A DNA stretch of 64,000 nt from Bryobacterales bacterium (GTDB lineage: Bacteria; Acidobacteriota; Terriglobia; Bryobacterales; UBA6623), in contig JAPPLB010000009.1 in the NCBI GenBank assembly GCA_028819575.1, positions 1 through 64,000 of the forward strand, given 5' to 3'. The notes beneath the pieces are model-generated. The model worked only from the letters and a program-made list of their open reading frames with translations, was not told where the DNA came from and made no database searches. This document shows, piece after piece, positions 1 to 63,540 of this stretch. Both the position numbers and the translations under genes were made by a program. The first letter of the stretch is position 1. Every line of letters starts with the position of its first letter.

Positions 1-112
1 AAGTACGCCTGCGCGCGCCAAGCGGCTCGCGCCTTTTTCCTCCGCCCGGCTTGCACCTCGTCCTGACGGCCTTCTCACGCACTTCGCCTCGCTGCGTGGT
101 GAGAATTGCAGG
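1..112 (-). mobile_element. Family A palindromic MITE-like element, copy A1 (cut by window edge)
   Basis: Read on the minus strand this is the left half of the family A repeat: it opens with the terminal repeat CCTGCAATTCTCACCACG (ending at 112) and runs to the central hairpin sequence AAGTACGCC at the window edge, so the other half lies outside. It matches A3 (26397-26597) and A6 (63336-63536) over its length with scattered mismatches. The tetramer outside the terminus (113-116) is CTGG rather than YTAR, so this copy may be old or rearranged. There is no coding potential. Confidence 0.85.
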
Positions 113-362
113 CTGGTTTTTGTCGCCAAACTTCGCTCCGGCGGTTTTCTTCGCCTGCATGGTTCTTGGGCCAGGCTCATCATTTTCTCTTCGGCAACGC
201 AGACAAGATCGACATCGAAATTCCCGGAGAAAGAGCAGCCGGGCTCATTCGCTTCCGATTCAGATGGGGACAGGCTCTTTCGTGGACCCAGTGGTCCAGA
301 CCGCTGATTCGGATTGAACCGGCAGGTTGCGCTTCGGGTCTCGCTAAGGTACAAGTCATTGA
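113..362. other. Intergenic stretch, no gene seen
   Basis: About 250 bases between repeat A1 and the first gene. Two short overlapping plus-strand reading frames run through it, but they start inside the repeat and resemble no known protein. The first bases (GGTTTTTGTCGCC) faintly resemble the outer end of family C. I see no convincing promoter. Confidence 0.5.
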
Positions 363-19837: not shown

Positions 19838-21676
19838 ATGTTGATGAAGCGAGGGTTAGTTGTTGCCATGACGGCATTGGCCGTGCTCCTGGGTGCGTGT
19901 GCGACCGAGGAACCCCGCGATTTGGTCTTTCAGGCCATGGCCGAGCCTTTTCTCTACGAGACGTTGACTCTAAACCCGATATACGCGACGACCTTGGGCT
20001 ATTACGTTCACACGCCGGTGGGCGAGGATGGGGAACCCGCCGGCCCCGAAGTCCGTCTCGACGAGATGCTGGATGACTTCTCAAGTGACGCGATTGCCAA
20101 GAAAATCGCGTCGATGAAGGACTTCCGGGTGAACCTCGACGTGGAGATCGATCGGGATCAAGAACTCAGGATGCATCCGTTCGTTGACCATGCGGTGGTG
20201 AACAACTACATCGACCGGACGCTGTTCGAGCTTGAGAGAGAACGAGTCCACGAACACAATCCCAGGATGTATGTCGAGCTTCTCGGAACCGCCCTTCACA
20301 CGCTCATGGTGCACGAGTATGCGCCTGCGGCCGAGAGATACAAGCATTTGATCGGGAGGCTGCAGAAGGTCCCGGTATTTCTGGATCAGGCAAGGGCGAA
20401 CCTGAAGGCGTCCCCCGACGTTTGGATCGACGTAGCTATCCAGGAGAACCAAGGGGTCATCAACCTGGTAGAAAGGGCCATTCCCGCGGAGATGCCAGCG
20501 GACCTGAAGGCGGATTACGATGCCGCGGCCGGCCCGGCGCTGGACGCTCTACGAGGATTCGAGGACTTCCTGAAGAACGATTTAGCGAAGCGTGGCCGGC
20601 ATGACTGGCGTCTGGGCAGTCAGCTTTACGCCGAAAAGCTGAAGCTGATGCTCAACACCGACAAGACCCCGGACCAACTCCTCCAAGAGGCAGAGTCCGC
20701 GCTCCAGAGCAGCTATGACCAGATCATCGAGAAGGCGCAGCCGATGCACCGTGCCATCTATGGCGGGCAGCGGCCGCCCAACAATATCGCACTGATGAAC
20801 GAAGTGCTCGAGGTCGTAGCGGACGATAACCGGCTTCGGAGCGGCGGCCAGTTCATCGACCAGATCCGGAAAGACATGAATGAGTTAAGCAGCTTCGTGG
20901 TGGACGCCGGTCTGGTCAATGTGCCGAGGCGCAATAATCTGCAGGTGATCGAAACTCCGGAATTCATGCGCGGCGTATATTCAGTGGCGGGATTCGTGAG
21001 CGCTCCGCCGATGAAACCGGAATTGAGTGCCTTTTATTGGGTGACGCCGATTCCATCGGATTGGTCGAGGGCGCGAACGAGGTCGAAGCTGCGGGAATAC
21101 AACCTTTTCAAGTTGAAGCTCCTCTCCGCGCATGAAGGCATACCGGGACACTACCTCCAGACGGAGTTCGCGAATGAAGGCTTCACCGACCCTGAGGCGC
21201 CCGACCCGGCTCCCGAGTTGAGCCGGCTGTTGCGGGCGGTTTTCCCCGACCCGAGCTACGTCGAAGGTTGGGCCAGCTACATTGAGCATGTCATAGCAGA
21301 CGCAGGCTATCAGGAAAGATCCGACGAGTTCCAGATCAACTGGCTGAAGGAACAGCTCAGGATCCAGGCCAACGCGGTTCTCGATATCCGCATGCATGCG
21401 ATGGACATGAGCGATGACGAGGCCGCCGAGTTGCTGCGGGAACGAGCCTTCCAGGAATCGGAAGAGGTCCGCGGCAAAATCTTGAGAGCCAAGCTGACCT
21501 CGGCGCAGTTGTCCCTCTACTATCACGGCTGGCAGGAATGGCTGAGGGTAAGGGAGCACTACCAGAACACGACGCAGGACTTCAGCCCCACTTCCTTCCA
21601 TGACAAGGCGCTCCGGAATGGGGCCGCACCGCTGCCGGAGATCGGTTACATCACCTCGAAAGTGCCGATGGACTAG
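19838..21676 (+). CDS. DUF885 family lipoprotein, putative zinc metallopeptidase
   Basis: 612 residues from ATG 19838 (GAGGT seven bases upstream; ATG 19844 also possible). The signal peptide ends in LLGAC, a lipobox, so the mature protein should be lipid-anchored. The C-terminal half carries AHEGIPGHYLQ (near residue 430), the HExxxxH-like signature of DUF885, followed by a conserved WASYIEH glutamate-containing motif (near 475). DUF885 proteins have a gluzincin-like helical fold and are thought to be peptidases; the substrate is unknown. The TAG stop (21674-21676) is part of the CTAG flanking repeat element A2. Confidence 0.85.
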   Translation: MLMKRGLVVAMTALAVLLGACATEEPRDLVFQAMAEPFLYETLTLNPIYATTLGYYVHTPVGEDGEPAGPEVRLDEMLDDFSSDAIAKKIASMKDFRVNLDVEIDRDQELRMHPFVDHAVVNNYIDRTLFELERERVHEHNPRMYVELLGTALHTLMVHEYAPAAERYKHLIGRLQKVPVFLDQARANLKASPDVWIDVAIQENQGVINLVERAIPAEMPADLKADYDAAAGPALDALRGFEDFLKNDLAKRGRHDWRLGSQLYAEKLKLMLNTDKTPDQLLQEAESALQSSYDQIIEKAQPMHRAIYGGQRPPNNIALMNEVLEVVADDNRLRSGGQFIDQIRKDMNELSSFVVDAGLVNVPRRNNLQVIETPEFMRGVYSVAGFVSAPPMKPELSAFYWVTPIPSDWSRARTRSKLREYNLFKLKLLSAHEGIPGHYLQTEFANEGFTDPEAPDPAPELSRLLRAVFPDPSYVEGWASYIEHVIADAGYQERSDEFQINWLKEQLRIQANAVLDIRMHAMDMSDDEAAELLRERAFQESEEVRGKILRAKLTSAQLSLYYHGWQEWLRVREHYQNTTQDFSPTSFHDKALRNGAAPLPEIGYITSKVPMD

Positions 21677-21857
21677 CCTGCATGTCTCACCACGTGGCGA
21701 GGCGAAGTGGGTGAGAGGGGCGTCAGGACGAGGCGCGAGCCGCTTGGCGCGCGCAGGCGTACTTGAACAGTACGTCGAGCACGGCAAGCAAGCGCAACGA
21801 AGTCCTGGCATTCGTATCGCGTGCTTCGGCCGTCGGGTGGTGAGAAATGCAGGCTAG
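21673..21857 (+). mobile_element. Family A MITE-like element, copy A2, with CTAG duplication
   Basis: Body 21677-21853 (177 bp) between two CTAG tetramers (21673-21676 and 21854-21857). Terminal repeats are CCTGCATGTCTCACCACG and the reverse complement of GTGGTGAGAAATGCAGG. The central hairpin CGTACTTGAACAGTACG lies at 21758-21774. Compared with A3 it lacks about 24 bp in the left arm. Its left CTAG supplies the stop codon of the DUF885 gene, and it sits between that gene and the convergent radical SAM gene. Confidence 0.9.
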
Positions 21858-21944
21858 TTTTTCCTCCGCCCGAGTGCGGATCATACAAGCAGGAAACATC
21901 CGGACCGGTGTCAACACCGCTTGACCCGGAGGATTTCACATCAG
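21857..21944 (+). repeat. Family C repeat, copy C1
   Basis: Begins GTTTTTCCTCCGCCCG directly at the end of element A2 and runs through GTGCGGATCATAC and GGAAACATCCGG to GGAGGATTTCACATC. It matches C2 (28831-28917, opposite strand) with roughly ten mismatches over the first 78 bp, and the first ~35 bp of C3 (35900-35957). It contains small inverted repeats (CCGC...GCGG and GGTG-TCAA-CACC). No coding potential; possibly a transcript end between two convergent genes. Confidence 0.75.
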
Positions 21945-25143: not shown

Positions 25144-25348
25144 CTAGCAGGCCGTGGTGAAACTCCGCGTAGCGCCGAAAACGGCCCGCGTTGCATCGAG
25201 AGCGGCCCGCGTAGCAACAAGAACAGCGCTACGCCCGGCTGACAAGGCGCGACGAGGGAGCATATTGGACATATTCGACCGAGGAGCAACGCAGTTCAGC
25301 CGGGATGCATCGCCGCTCGAATGCAGCGAGGGTTTCACCACGGGCTAG
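25144..25348. mobile_element. Family B MITE-like element, copy B1, with CTAG duplication
   Basis: Body 25148-25344 (197 bp) flanked by CTAG at 25144-25147 and 25345-25348. Ends are inverted repeats: CAGGCCGTGGTGAAACTCCG on the left, GGGTTTCACCACGGG on the right. The interior is GC-rich with internal echoes (GCGGCCCGCGT) and no transposase. The right CTAG supplies the stop codon of the leftward YfgM-like gene and the left end lies 17 bp before the dNTPase start codon. Reading frames cross it on both strands but are accidental. Confidence 0.8.
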
Positions 25349-26106
25349 GACTGTGGAGGCGGGGCCGCCGGCGTCGTCGTCGGCTCCGTCATCACTCCTA
25401 GACGACTCTCCAAACTGGCGCGCAGGCGAGCCGCCATCTCGCGGCCGGCTCCATTGCGCTCCTCGATAGACTTGACGAGCTCCAGAGCCTTCTGTTCGTC
25501 GGTGGCCAGCAGCGCGTCATAGAGGCCAAAAAGCTCGATTCGCTCCTTGGGCAACATCTCGGTGGGGTTCTCCACAAGGTGTTCGTAGTGCTTGAGCGCT
25601 TCTTCGCTTTGGCCTTCTCTTTGAAGCTGATCGGCGAGAGCCTTGCGGGCCAGGGCGGAGACTTCGTCGTCAGCATGATCGAGGAAACCCTCAAGCAGCG
25701 TCTTGGCCTCTTCCGGATCGCCTTCAGACACCTCGTAGAGTGCGAGGTGCAGCCGGGCGATCTCGCCTTCCAAGCGGCCGGCATAGTCCTGGGCAACCTT
25801 GTTGAGCGGCTCCTTGATCTTCTGCTCTTTTTCTTCAATTGTTGGCTCGAAAGACAAACTCTCCGGGTCCGAATCGCGAGAGTCTAAACCGTGGTAGTTG
25901 ATCAGCGCTTCCTGCAAGGCGATCCTCGCTTCATTAGCGAGCTCATTCTGATAGCGATAGAAACCGACGCCGGCAACAACCAACAGGACTACCGTCACCA
26001 CTGCGCCTGTGATCAGCTTGCGGTGTCTCGTAAACAGGCCGACGGCTTCGGTGACTTCTTCGACGAACCGGTCTTGCTTGAGTTGCTTTCGAGTAAGCCT
26101 AGCCAC
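25345..26106 (-). CDS. YfgM-like tetratricopeptide membrane protein
   Basis: 253 residues: cytoplasmic basic N-terminus (RKQLKQDRFVEEV), one membrane span near residues 33-53 (ITGAVVTVVLLVVAGVGFY), then helical repeats rich in Leu/Glu. This matches the YfgM/Tetratricopeptide_2 family, membrane-anchored periplasmic TPR proteins that act with the Sec translocon or chaperones. It ends in a Pro/Thr tail and its TAG stop belongs to the CTAG of element B1. Exact role here is inferred from architecture only. Confidence 0.75.
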   Translation of the reverse strand: MARLTRKQLKQDRFVEEVTEAVGLFTRHRKLITGAVVTVVLLVVAGVGFYRYQNELANEARIALQEALINYHGLDSRDSDPESLSFEPTIEEKEQKIKEPLNKVAQDYAGRLEGEIARLHLALYEVSEGDPEEAKTLLEGFLDHADDEVSALARKALADQLQREGQSEEALKHYEHLVENPTEMLPKERIELFGLYDALLATDEQKALELVKSIEERNGAGREMAARLRASLESRLGVMTEPTTTPAAPPPQS

Positions 26107-26392: not shown

Positions 26393-26601
26393 TTAGCCTG
26401 CATTTCTCACCACGTGGCGAGGCGAAGTGGGTGAGAGGGCCGTCAGGACTAGGCGCAAGCCGGACGGAGGAAAAAGGCGCGAGCCGCTTGGCGCGCGCAG
26501 GCGTACTTGAACAGTACGTCGAGCACGGCAAGCAAGCGCAACGAAGTCCTGGCGGTCGTATCGCGTGCTTCGACCGTTGGGTGGTGAGAAATGCAGGTTA
26601 G
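26393..26601 (+). mobile_element. Family A MITE-like element, copy A3 (full length), with TTAG duplication
   Basis: Body 26397-26597 (201 bp) between perfect TTAG repeats (26393-26396 and 26598-26601). Terminal inverted repeats of at least 17 bp: CCTGCATTTCTCACCAC and GTGGTGAGAAATGCAGG. A second pair of inverted arms (CAGGACT... and ...AGTCCTGG) and a central hairpin CGTACTTGAACAGTACG (26502-26518) make the whole element a nested palindrome. This is the best preserved copy and the reference for the family. It lies in the divergent gap between the TPR gene and feoA. Confidence 0.93.
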
Positions 26602-28830: not shown

Positions 28831-28917
28831 CCTGAAACATCCTCCTGATCAAGCGGTGTTGGCACGGCTCCGGATGTTTCCCGATGGTATGATCCGCACA
28901 CGGTCGGAGGAAAAACT
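28831..28917 (-). repeat. Family C repeat, copy C2
   Basis: On the minus strand it begins GTTTTTCCTCCGACCG (from 28917) and ends GGAGGATGTTTCAGG at 28831. It is the closest relative of C1 (21857-21944). It lies 12 bases after the feoB stop and 48 bases before the signal peptidase start. On the plus strand it contains GGTATGATCC, whose TATGAT could serve as a -10 box for the next gene, though that would be chance use. Confidence 0.75.
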
Positions 28918-35020: not shown

Positions 35021-35899
35021 GTGACGAAGACGGCCACTGCTACGGACGGTTTGGAGCCAGGCTCGCGTGCACAACGAGCAGTTTGGCTCACCAGCCGACG
35101 GAAAGTTCTTTCCTTGGCGCCGGCGGCTTTCGCGTTCGGGAAGGTTCTCAAGGCGGAAAGCCGGCAGGAGCGCGGGCGGCGCTTGCTCGGGGAATGCATC
35201 GAGGCTTTGGGCGGCGAGCGTTTCTTGCAGATTCGCGACGTGGTGCGATCGGGACGCGCCTACTCCTTCTATCGGGCGAACGTCCGGGGTCTGGCAAGAA
35301 TCACCATTTACGAGAATTTCGGTCCCCTTGAGGAGGACCCCGAAGCGGACTGGCTGCCCGTAAGCCGGCGCGAAGTCTACACGGAAAAGGGAGACTATTA
35401 CAACCTCTTCGAGAACGGACAAGGGTGGGAAGTCACCTTCCGTGGAGCCAGGCCCCTGCCCCAGGAGCGGATGAATCGATATCGGGAATCGACACGCTGC
35501 GACATCTTCTACTTTCTGCGATACCGGTTCGATGAACCGGACATGTACTATTACCACCGCGGAACGGAGATCATCGACAATGTTCCGACCGACGCCATCG
35601 ACGTGACCGACAGACTTGGAGAGGGCGTCACGTACTTCCTCCGTCAATCCGATCGGCTGCCGGTGCAGCAGGTCTATCAGCGCCGTGACCCCAGGACGAG
35701 AATCCCCTCCGAAGAGAAATCGGCCTTCTCGAAGTACCGCGAAGTCTCGGGAGTGATTCTGCCGTGGAACATCCGCCGGGAAGTGGACGGCGAGAAGGCC
35801 TTCGAGCTTTTTGGTCGAACCGCGGAGGTGAATCCCCGGCTGGATGCCTCGACGTACTCTCTTGACAAGCGCCTCACCTTGCTGCCGGAGAGCCCTTGA
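35021..35899 (+). CDS. Tat-exported hypothetical protein, possibly LolA-like fold
   Basis: 292 residues if GTG 35021 is the start; GGAGGT stands just upstream (35012-35017). The frame is open to 34865 but that region would overlap the promoter of the divergent gene. Residues ~25-45 (TSRRKVLSLAPAAFAFG) look like a twin-arginine signal. The mature part ends in a pattern (VTYFLRQSDRLPVQQVYQRR..., YREVSGVILPWNI) resembling the closing strands of LolA-type proteins. Function unknown. Repeat C3 begins directly after the TGA stop. Confidence 0.6.
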   Translation: MTKTATATDGLEPGSRAQRAVWLTSRRKVLSLAPAAFAFGKVLKAESRQERGRRLLGECIEALGGERFLQIRDVVRSGRAYSFYRANVRGLARITIYENFGPLEEDPEADWLPVSRREVYTEKGDYYNLFENGQGWEVTFRGARPLPQERMNRYRESTRCDIFYFLRYRFDEPDMYYYHRGTEIIDNVPTDAIDVTDRLGEGVTYFLRQSDRLPVQQVYQRRDPRTRIPSEEKSAFSKYREVSGVILPWNIRREVDGEKAFELFGRTAEVNPRLDASTYSLDKRLTLLPESP

Positions 35900-35957
35900 C
35901 CTGAAACAAGCCCTCGCCCCCAGTGTTTCCCACTCGAATGATCCGCACACGGGCGGC
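35900..35957 (-). repeat. Family C repeat, copy C3 (shortened)
   Basis: On the minus strand it begins GGTTTTTCGCCGCCCGTG and continues GTGCGGATCATTC and GGGAAACA, then ends with TGTTTCAGG next to the stop codon of the preceding gene. About 30 bp of the middle seen in C1 and C2 are absent. It is followed at once by a 7-bp tandem repeat and element A4. Confidence 0.65.
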
Positions 35958-36000
35958 GAAAAACCAAAAACCAAAAACCAAAAACTGAAAACTGAGAACT
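35958..36000 (+). repeat. 7-bp tandem repeat (AAAAACC/AAAACTG type)
   Basis: About six 7-bp units: AAAAACC repeated, drifting to AAAACTG, GAAAACT and GAGAACT. It is AT-rich and stands out in this GC-rich chromosome. It lies exactly between C3 and A4. Confidence 0.8.
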
Positions 36001-51812: not shown

Positions 51813-51984
51813 TTAACCCGCATTTCTCACCACGCGGCGAGGTGAAGTGCGTGAGAGGGCCGTCAGGACGAGGTGCGCGCCGCTTGGCGCAAGCAACATG
51901 GCTTTTAAGGTTTTTTCACGAATCACGAGTCACGGCTTTTCTATCGCGTGCTTCGGCCGTCGGGTGGTGAGAAAGGCAGGTTAA
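51813..51984 (+). mobile_element. Family A MITE-like element, copy A5 (rearranged interior), with TTAA duplication
   Basis: Body 51817-51980 (164 bp) between perfect TTAA repeats (51813-51816 and 51981-51984). Both arms match family A (CCCGCATTTCTCACCACG; GTGGTGAGAAAGGCAGG), but the middle is replaced by other DNA including TTTTTCACGAATCACGAGTC (51912-51931), which recurs in similar form at 55029-55053. The right TTAA supplies the TAA stop of the leftward peptidase gene. It lies between convergent recQ and that gene. Confidence 0.88.
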
Positions 51985-53657
51985 GATTCGTCCGGGGCCG
52001 CCAATCCCTGCTCGAACACGACGTCCACGGGAATCCCCGCTGTCGATAGCCGGTCCAGGTCCCGTTGCAGTCCCTCGCCGATCTTGCCCATCTCCCCGAC
52101 GAACCGCGTGACGCCTTCGTAGTCCCCGTCGCCCTGCAAGGTCAGGATCTTCTTGGACAGCTCATCCACGGCCTCTTGCATCTTCTCCATCTCGACTCGA
52201 TACGTCCCCGTTTCCTCGTCACGCGAGAACGCTCCCGCCTTGGCGAAAAAGTTGAACCGCAGCAGATTCGCCACGCCGTGCGCGCTCGACGCTCCGAAGC
52301 GGATCGACCGGAAGATCCCCGCCAGGAACGTAACGTAGTTGTCCAGCAGATCCGCATCTTCCAGTTCCCCCTGCTCATGGAGTTTGGTCACCATGTACAG
52401 CCCGAGAATATCGGCTTTTCCTTCCTCAAGTGCCGACGCCTTGTCCTTGAGCGCCTCGCGTACCGTTCCCTTGCCCGTCAGCGTATTCTTGATGCCCAGA
52501 CCGTGCGCCACTTCGTGGAACATCGTGTTCTCGAAGAAGGCGTCGAAGTCGATGAATCGCCGCTGGCTTTCTGCGATCAAGACGTCGCCGATGGGGATGA
52601 GAATCTTTTCGAACTTCGCCCGCATCGCGTTCTTGAGTTGCAAGCGCCGCGTGCCTTTTTGAAGCTGCACCTCTTCGTCGTTGGGGAGGTTGATCGCGAT
52701 CGTCTTCGCCCCCGCGTTGCAATCTCCGGCGTAGTAGATCACGTCGTACGCATTCAAGTCGGAATCCGAGCCCGGCGTTTCCTGCTTGTATTCGTCCGGC
52801 ACAGGCAGCCCGCGCTGCAAGGCGGGCAACATCGAGGCGTAGCGCGATAGCCGCCCGCTCCACTCCTTGTCTTTGATCAACACGTACGCCTCGTAGGCCG
52901 CCTTGTAGCCGAACAGCGCGTCCTCGTAGGTCTCGATGGCGCCGATGACGACATCGACCGTGTTGTCCTTCATGTCCATCCAGGCCAGATCGCTGGGTTG
53001 ATAGTCGTCCGTGACCAGTGCTTCGGCCCGCAGCTCCAGATATTTCTTGAGACCGGGGTCGTCCGCCAGCGCGGCGGCCTCGCGGAGCTTTCCCGCCGCC
53101 GTCGCAAGTTCCGATGCGAAGACTTCGTGATAGGGTTCCGCCGCAAGAGATCCGTTCTCGTCCCGCCGGACAAAGGTGTACAGACTGCGCAGCGTGTCCG
53201 CCTGATCACCTGAAGCAGCCGCCTCGAACTCCTCTTTCGTCATGTCTTCCGGATAGAATCGCGCGCCGGGAGGTTTCGGACCGGCGCCCGGGACAAACGG
53301 CTCATCTCCTGCCAGCCGGTCCCAGGGACCGTAGTTGATCTCCACCAGCCGCCGCAGGTCCGCGTCTTCGATCTGGCCGAGCAATGCCTCGCGGTCGCCG
53401 TAGGACTGCCGCCAGAACAGCCCGTTCATCACGTCCGACGCCTCGATCAACAACGGAAGCATCTTCCGTTCGTTCTCCGTCAGAACGCTGAGGTCCGACT
53501 CCAAACGAAACGATGTGTACTTCGCCAACCGAGCGGCCATATCCGTATCCGTTGCCGGCGGCGCGCCGCTGCCGCAGTTCCACGACGAGAAGCACAACCC
53601 CGCTCCCGCCACCAGCATCGAGCAAGCCAACCGGCGCGTCATACCCCTGTCCTTCAC
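51981..53657 (-). CDS. Exported zinc metallopeptidase, dipeptidyl-peptidase III (M49)-like
   Basis: 558 residues with an N-terminal signal (RRLACSMLVAGAGLCFSS); ATG at 53642 is an alternative start. The zinc site is HEVAH near residue 385, followed about 35 residues later by EEGKADILGLY, the distal Glu motif. The general layout (KKGTRRLQLKNAM, IGIKNTLTGKGTVREALKDKAS) matches M49-like peptidases annotated in acidobacteria, although classical DPP III has HELLGH with one extra residue. Probable function: trimming of peptides outside the inner membrane. Confidence 0.78.
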   Translation of the reverse strand: MKDRGMTRRLACSMLVAGAGLCFSSWNCGSGAPPATDTDMAARLAKYTSFRLESDLSVLTENERKMLPLLIEASDVMNGLFWRQSYGDREALLGQIEDADLRRLVEINYGPWDRLAGDEPFVPGAGPKPPGARFYPEDMTKEEFEAAASGDQADTLRSLYTFVRRDENGSLAAEPYHEVFASELATAAGKLREAAALADDPGLKKYLELRAEALVTDDYQPSDLAWMDMKDNTVDVVIGAIETYEDALFGYKAAYEAYVLIKDKEWSGRLSRYASMLPALQRGLPVPDEYKQETPGSDSDLNAYDVIYYAGDCNAGAKTIAINLPNDEEVQLQKGTRRLQLKNAMRAKFEKILIPIGDVLIAESQRRFIDFDAFFENTMFHEVAHGLGIKNTLTGKGTVREALKDKASALEEGKADILGLYMVTKLHEQGELEDADLLDNYVTFLAGIFRSIRFGASSAHGVANLLRFNFFAKAGAFSRDEETGTYRVEMEKMQEAVDELSKKILTLQGDGDYEGVTRFVGEMGKIGEGLQRDLDRLSTAGIPVDVVFEQGLAAPDES

Positions 53658-63331: not shown

Positions 63332-63540
63332 CTAGCCTTCATTTCTCAACACGCGGCCAGGCGAAGTGCGTGAGAGGGCCGCCAGGACTAGGCGCAAGCC
63401 GGGCAGAGGAAAAAGGCGCGAGCCGCTTGGCGCGCGCAGGCGTACTTGAACAGTACGTTGAGCACGGCAAGCAAGCGCAACGAAGTCCTGGCGGTCGTAT
63501 CGCGTGCTTCGACCGTCGGGTGGTGAGAAATGCAGGCTAA
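63332..63540 (+). mobile_element. Family A MITE-like element, copy A6 (full length), flanks CTAG/CTAA
   Basis: Body 63336-63536 (201 bp, the same length as A3) between CTAG (63332-63335) and CTAA (63537-63540), a duplication with one mismatch. Ends: CCTTCATTTCTCAACACG and GTGGTGAGAAATGCAGG. Central hairpin CGTACTTGAACAGTACG at 63441-63457. The right flank, read leftward, is TTAG, whose TAG is the stop of the DAHP synthase gene. It lies between convergent genes. Confidence 0.92.

Follow-up and report, generated by a model that had tools for sequence, protein, structure and literature searches.

The palindromic elements that abut stop codons in the window, by which we mean the whole stretch of 64,000 nucleotides analysed here, are probably MITEs moved by an IS1380-family transposase that inserts at a TA-centred 4-bp target, and their placement on stop codons probably results from target availability and selection, with no preference for stop codons as such. 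A stop-codon preference was the first idea considered, and it was dropped after a site-level count of insertions and targets. In the genome carrying the window (G000; 5.37 Mb in 200 contigs), the elements are MITEs of 177-201 nt, with complete copies being mostly 177 or 201 nt long. They share the terminal repeat CCTGCATTTCTCACCAC, present in inverted orientation at their ends, and contain no transposase gene. Complete copies fold into one long hairpin, and these hairpins are strong (z about -7.7).

Searches with the terminal repeat at up to 3 mismatches identified 638 and 665 ends in this genome, against 10 for a reversed control pattern. About 670 ends (2 mismatches) were identified in a sister species of the same genus (G002), 23 in another congener and 0-3 in each of the remaining relatives, which is about the level of the control pattern. 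Elements and genes were called with our own scripts, using a simple codon-usage caller for genes, in 1.89 Mb of this genome (about 35%) and, for the sister species, in 0.78 Mb (14%); both are draft assemblies, often broken at these repeats. Many contigs of the assembly stop inside an element (e.g. C191:96-112, C16:34-50, C133:39-55), so the repeats probably limit assembly and copy number is underestimated. Mobility between the two species is shown by 28 occupied/empty sites in which the gap is exactly 4 bp. Short length, terminal inverted repeats, lack of a transposase gene, empty sites and an autonomous partner with matching ends together identify the family as MITEs.

The copies and remnants found in the window, with the genes that they adjoin, are as follows.

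19838..21676 (+): gene for a DUF885 protein (PF05960), whose 3' end is the left flank of an element
21673..21676 (+): CTAG, the final base of the last DUF885 codon plus the TAG stop; the element's left flank
21677..21853 (+): MITE copy of 177 nt, termini CCTGCAT... and ...ATGCAGG, folding into a single long hairpin
21854..21857 (+): CTAG, the right flank, which repeats the 4-bp target
51813..51816 (+): TTAA, flanking the third element (MITE 51817..51980) on its left
51817..51980 (-): MITE copy of 164 nt, whose site is empty in the sister species (tetramer TCAC)
51981..51984 (-): TTAA, right flank of MITE 51817..51980, in which the M49-like gene has its TAA stop
51981..53642 (-): M49-like peptidase gene (PF03571), whose 3' end is that right flank
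63332..63335 (+): CTAG, left flank of MITE 63336..63536
63336..63536 (-): MITE copy of 201 nt, present at the same stop in the sister species too
63537..63540 (-): TTAG in the sense of the DAHP synthase gene, containing its TAG stop and forming the right flank of MITE 63336..63536
26393..26601 (+): MITE copy of 201 nt between two TTAG flanks, away from any stop codon
35999..36072 (+): shortened element with flanks CTGG and CTAT
1..116 (-): element truncated where the contig ends; its outer flank is CTGG (reading CCAG towards the element)
25345..25348 (-): CTAG stop of a TPR (YfgM-like) gene, without a terminal repeat after it

Judged by the terminal repeat, the window hence holds six copies or remnants, and not the eight elements that the sequence-only reading had counted. 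Among the four elements that it had placed on stop codons, those at 21676, 51981 and 63537 are exact. The fourth falls away: the gene at 25345-26106 (-) matches Pfam TPR_21, which fits its description as YfgM-like, and its last bases are CTAG, but no match to the terminal repeat is seen in the bases after the stop (CCCGTGGTGAAACCCTCGC), even with 7 mismatches allowed. An Rfam search of the 64-kb window returned nothing.

An IS1380-family element as likely mobiliser

The IS1380 family, which also mobilises resistance genes, is represented in this genome by an insertion sequence of 1.72 kb whose ends are near-identical to those of the MITEs. One end reads CCYGCATTTCTCACCAG and the other is a version with 4 mismatches; they differ from the MITE ends by 1-2 and 4 mismatches. 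Two copies of this element, 97% identical to each other, are flanked by CTAA/CTAA in one case and by CTAG/CTAG in the other, that is, by 4-bp duplications; a 5-bp duplication has been described for IS1247 of the same family (PMC3281130). The encoded transposase matches NF033539 (E=4e-115, 384.7 bits for a cut-off of 180) and also PF13701, and its nearest relative was found in the Bryobacterales isolate APA_bin_29. On the strength of these sequence matches, an IS1380-family transposase likely mobilises the MITEs in trans.

A search of the transposase sequence against solved structures returned nothing. For an IS1380 relative with 60% identity, the predicted fold matched Tn5 (Z 18), piggyBac (6x67; Z 11.3) and piggyBat (Z 10.5). 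Two other sources were rejected. IS701 would involve a DDE_5 transposase (PF13546), which has no match in the genome carrying the window, and a REP/RAYT system would involve a Y1 transposase (PF01797), which is absent from both high-copy genomes. Nine Y1 (IS200/RAYT-type) matches were observed in a low-copy congener (G001), against none in the two high-copy genomes.

Stop codons and the availability of targets

Placement at stop codons is far above positional chance genome-wide. In the 1.89 Mb analysed, 80 of 481 element ends start at the base right after a stop codon, whereas each distance from 1 to 60 nt accounts for at most 3 ends per class of ends. The sister species presents the same picture, with 32 of 174 ends directly after a stop and a single end at every other listed distance. 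The tetramers at the 80 stop-abutting ends include 22 CTGA and 13 ATAG or GTAG, and are thus not YTAR alone. The insertion target is a 4-bp sequence, probably centred on TA, with YTAR as the best version and RTAR and CTGA used as well.

A site-level analysis was performed in both species by removing complete copies in silico, re-calling genes, and counting elements and YTAR sites by place. The number of elements per YTAR was 54/417 (0.129) at stop codons and 37/222 (0.167) at sites up to 60 nt downstream of a stop (p=0.27), ranged from 0.014 to 0.097 farther from the stops of genes, and fell to 16/1328 (0.012) in coding sequence, which is nearly empty; this control rests on our own gene calls and on 35% of the genome. 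Stops account for 20.4% of the YTAR sites outside coding sequence and receive 32% of the insertions there (p=4e-4), an excess over the share of intergenic YTAR sites that can be explained by a general favouring of 3'-proximal sites. When the weaker targets RTAR and CTGA were weighted in, stops took 59% of the insertions shared with near-downstream sites, against 48.5% expected, a borderline result (p=0.046). Because insertion can alter the flanks, the tetramer now seen at an occupied site may differ from the original one, which affects stop and non-stop sites alike.

Relative to the targets available beside gene ends, placement at stops is therefore not clearly in excess. Equal rates at stop and near-downstream YTAR sites indicate three main causes: YTAR is scarce elsewhere, insertions in coding sequence are lost, and gene 3' ends are favoured in general. 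TGA stops other than CTGA almost never carry an element, indicating that it is the sequence that matters, not the codon. Coding YTAR is itself strongly depleted, with 921 sites in about 1.5 Mb compared with very roughly 14,000 expected from our own base-composition estimate. In a GC-rich genome in which coding YTAR is very rare and coding insertions are purged, stops would be among the main surviving landing sites.

The earlier suggestion of a YTAR inserter whose hits on stops are tolerated and kept is hence largely borne out by the site rates and by the loss of coding insertions, and its bolder version, a true preference for stop codons, finds no counterpart in the site rates. An inserter that truly prefers stops, for instance through coupling to translation termination or transcript ends, would account for the 80 ends at distance 0, for the share of insertions at stops and for the borderline weighted excess. 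We nevertheless regard it as very improbable, given that YTAR sites just downstream are hit at the same rate and that TGA stops are spared unless they read CTGA.

Equally doubtful is that the palindromes are retained because they end transcripts in both directions between convergent genes. In its favour, their hairpins are strong, CTAGTTTTT comes after the MITE hairpin where a second repeat adjoins it, and convergent gene pairs hold 17.6% of YTAR sites but 28% of insertions (p=0.005). Against it, the inverted repeats of any MITE give a hairpin, most copies sit between tandem genes, and the convergent excess is modest and would equally arise if convergent gaps were just neutral. The remark that elements separate convergent genes thus retains modest support, as a moderate over-representation.

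Unequal flanks and changed stop codons

The comparison of orthologous gene ends with the sister species (coding identity about 95%) revealed that the stop codon had changed in 12 of 30 genes with an element in one species only, compared with 16 of 237 genes without an element (p=4e-6). Eleven of the 12 changes are swaps between TAA or TAG and TGA, against 8/237 in the control (p=2e-7). At four loci (C16:12664, C51:25325, C199:11657 and C30:52883) the occupied site reads CTGA and the empty site CTAG, and in the C16 and C51 cases the far flank is still CTAG; the reverse change, from an empty TGA to an occupied TAA or TAG, was observed in 4 cases. Within the window, the M49-like gene ends in TTAA at the element and in GTGA, with no element, in the sister species. 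Ordinary stop-codon turnover was rejected as the origin of CTGA at stops, its baseline rate being far lower.

The flanks themselves are often unequal. Across the 28 occupied/empty pairs, the empty tetramer is matched by both flanks in 5, by just one in 11 and by neither in 12. The left and right flanks differ from each other in 18 pairs (equal in 10), above a generous neutral bound of 36% (p=0.002), and by at least two bases in 8 pairs, where the neutral bound is 5.7% (p=1e-4). As the empty sites belong to a different species, flank differences are partly ordinary divergence, which is covered by these bounds, taken from the divergence of the bases around the sites. Unequal flanks are also found in 19 of 26 young copies (<3% from the consensus), and in the window at MITE 63336..63536 (CTAG on the left versus TTAG, in the sense of the gene, on the right). 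It had been proposed that insertion duplicates the stop and leaves the protein intact. This proposal holds only in part, as at many insertions the flank is an unfaithful copy and the stop codon itself is changed.

Read towards the element, the odd flank is CTGA, CTGG or TTAG, which are YTRR-like, or else TTAA or ATAG, and it is mostly CTGA or CTGG. Genes extend in frame into 37 of 70 CTGA flanks, but no gene does so at the 26 CTGG flanks; selection against insertions that bring in CTGG, and thereby abolish the stop, would give this result.

A second repeat family, repeat B, has a bearing on these observations. Its consensus of about 87 nt (CCTGAAACATCC...GATCAAGCGGCGTTGACACC...GGATGTTTCC...GGCGGAGGAAAAACT) matched 44 times in 1.89 Mb. 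In the window it is represented at the following positions.

35900-35965 (+): repeat B
28831-28915 (+): repeat B
21858-21942 (-): repeat B

The outer flank of repeat B is nearly always CTGA or CTGG. The repeat starts right after a stop, nearly always TGA, in 12 of 43 copies and in 10 of 30 in the sister species; at position 35899 of the window, a gene ending in TTGA is followed directly by a diverged copy. In six gene pairs, the same stop adjoins a MITE in one species and repeat B in the other, and at one of these stops (L165 against C8:33892) the sister species holds a composite of MITE and repeat B with the same outer boundary.

Origin of the unequal flanks

The finding of unequal flanks, one of which equals the target, led us to propose a carry-over of the piggyBac type. 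In piggyBac, the hairpin at the transposon tip holds 4 nt of flank, which is turned into a flap on integration (PMC7351741). One 4-nt flank would likewise travel with the element, as a tip hairpin holding 4 nt of donor flank that would come to lie opposite the target strand on integration, so that one junction would retain the target sequence and the other would have the donor sequence. A gene that receives a carried stop tetramer (CTGA, YTAG or YTAA) would survive with a swapped stop codon, and a carried CTGG would abolish the stop, so that selection would remove the insertion. We tentatively favour this reading of the genomic sequences, at a little less than even confidence: the 4-nt flank may be part of the mobile unit, and the element may carry a portable stop that replaces the gene's own.

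Several observations count against carry-over. Flank sharing among closely related copies was no more frequent than expected by chance, in a comparison of low power in which most copies are several percent apart. Some of the 12 pairs in which neither flank equals the empty site must be explained by interspecies divergence. The odd flanks are skewed to CTGA and CTGG and do not mirror the whole flank pool, and Tn5, which is closer in fold (Z 18), has a hairpin without flank (PMC7351741).

The near-fixed CTGA end of repeat B at the same stops makes an exchange between ends possible, and this is a serious rival to carry-over. The unequal flanks would then have arisen after insertion, by gene conversion that extends a few bases beyond the terminal repeat and uses repeat B or CTGA-flanked copies as donors. 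The near-fixed CTGA/CTGG end of repeat B, the six stops shared between the two families, the composite with an identical outer boundary and the prevalence of CTGA and CTGG among odd flanks are all consistent with exchange. We consider it rather unlikely, nonetheless, since the least diverged copies have unequal flanks just as often and the odd flanks include TTAG, TTAA and ATAG, none of which is an end of repeat B.

More improbable still is an ordinary target-site duplication followed by mutation, in which copies would be old and stops would drift among TAG, TAA and TGA; the pairs with neither flank equal to the empty site and the stop changes seen without elements speak for it, but the stop-change rate is several times the baseline, two-base differences occur at more than a quarter of the sites and copies less than 3% diverged already have unequal flanks.

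Small repeats placed on stops may look like targeted insertions, and in the present case a measured control attributes the pattern mainly to target availability and selection. Should carry-over hold, unequal flanks would provide evidence from genomes about the cut-and-paste mechanism of IS1380 transposases, the changes from TAG to TGA would be a visible record of a piggyBac-like flank hairpin, and imperfect target-site duplications would not need to signal age. Transposons would also have a direct route to change stop codons, and a portable stop would let an IS1380-type transposon colonise gene ends harmlessly.

Relation to known systems

Among the closest known systems is the IS1380 family (NF033539/PF13701), whose representative in this genome has almost identical terminal repeats and also makes YTAR duplications of 4 bp; the repeats differ from it in lacking a transposase. 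Unequal flanks were not found among the described properties of the family in the literature searched. In the open-access literature, with subscription papers mostly outside its scope, direct precedents were found neither for MITEs inserted at stop codons nor for carry-over of donor flanks by insertion sequences, and no description was found of unequal flanks arising from carry-over with stop swapping.

REP elements with RAYT transposases are palindromic, lie near gene ends and have a tetranucleotide at their foot. The elements described here resemble them in all three respects, but differ in that the two high-copy genomes lack a Y1 transposase and that a 4-bp duplication is present.

IS1380 transposases have been placed as an outgroup of piggyBac (PMC10813416), and the predicted fold suggests a related RNase H fold (Z 11.3), in addition to a 4-bp TA-rich target in both. 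piggyBac is strict for TTAA, whereas the MITE target is relaxed, and the flank hairpin is known in piggyBac and only proposed for IS1380. The IS5 group has the same YTAR target motif as these elements (PMC10359306), but belongs to another transposase family, and the terminal repeats match the IS1380 element. Finally, pneumococcal BOX repeats, which are small and palindromic, give a stop codon to 36 genes without clear truncation (PMC3049150); in the elements described here, the stop sits outside the repeat, in the 4-bp flank, for which the empty site offers a comparison. IS1380-type MITEs with a YTAR-like target, and repeats that supply stop codons, such as BOX, were thus already known.
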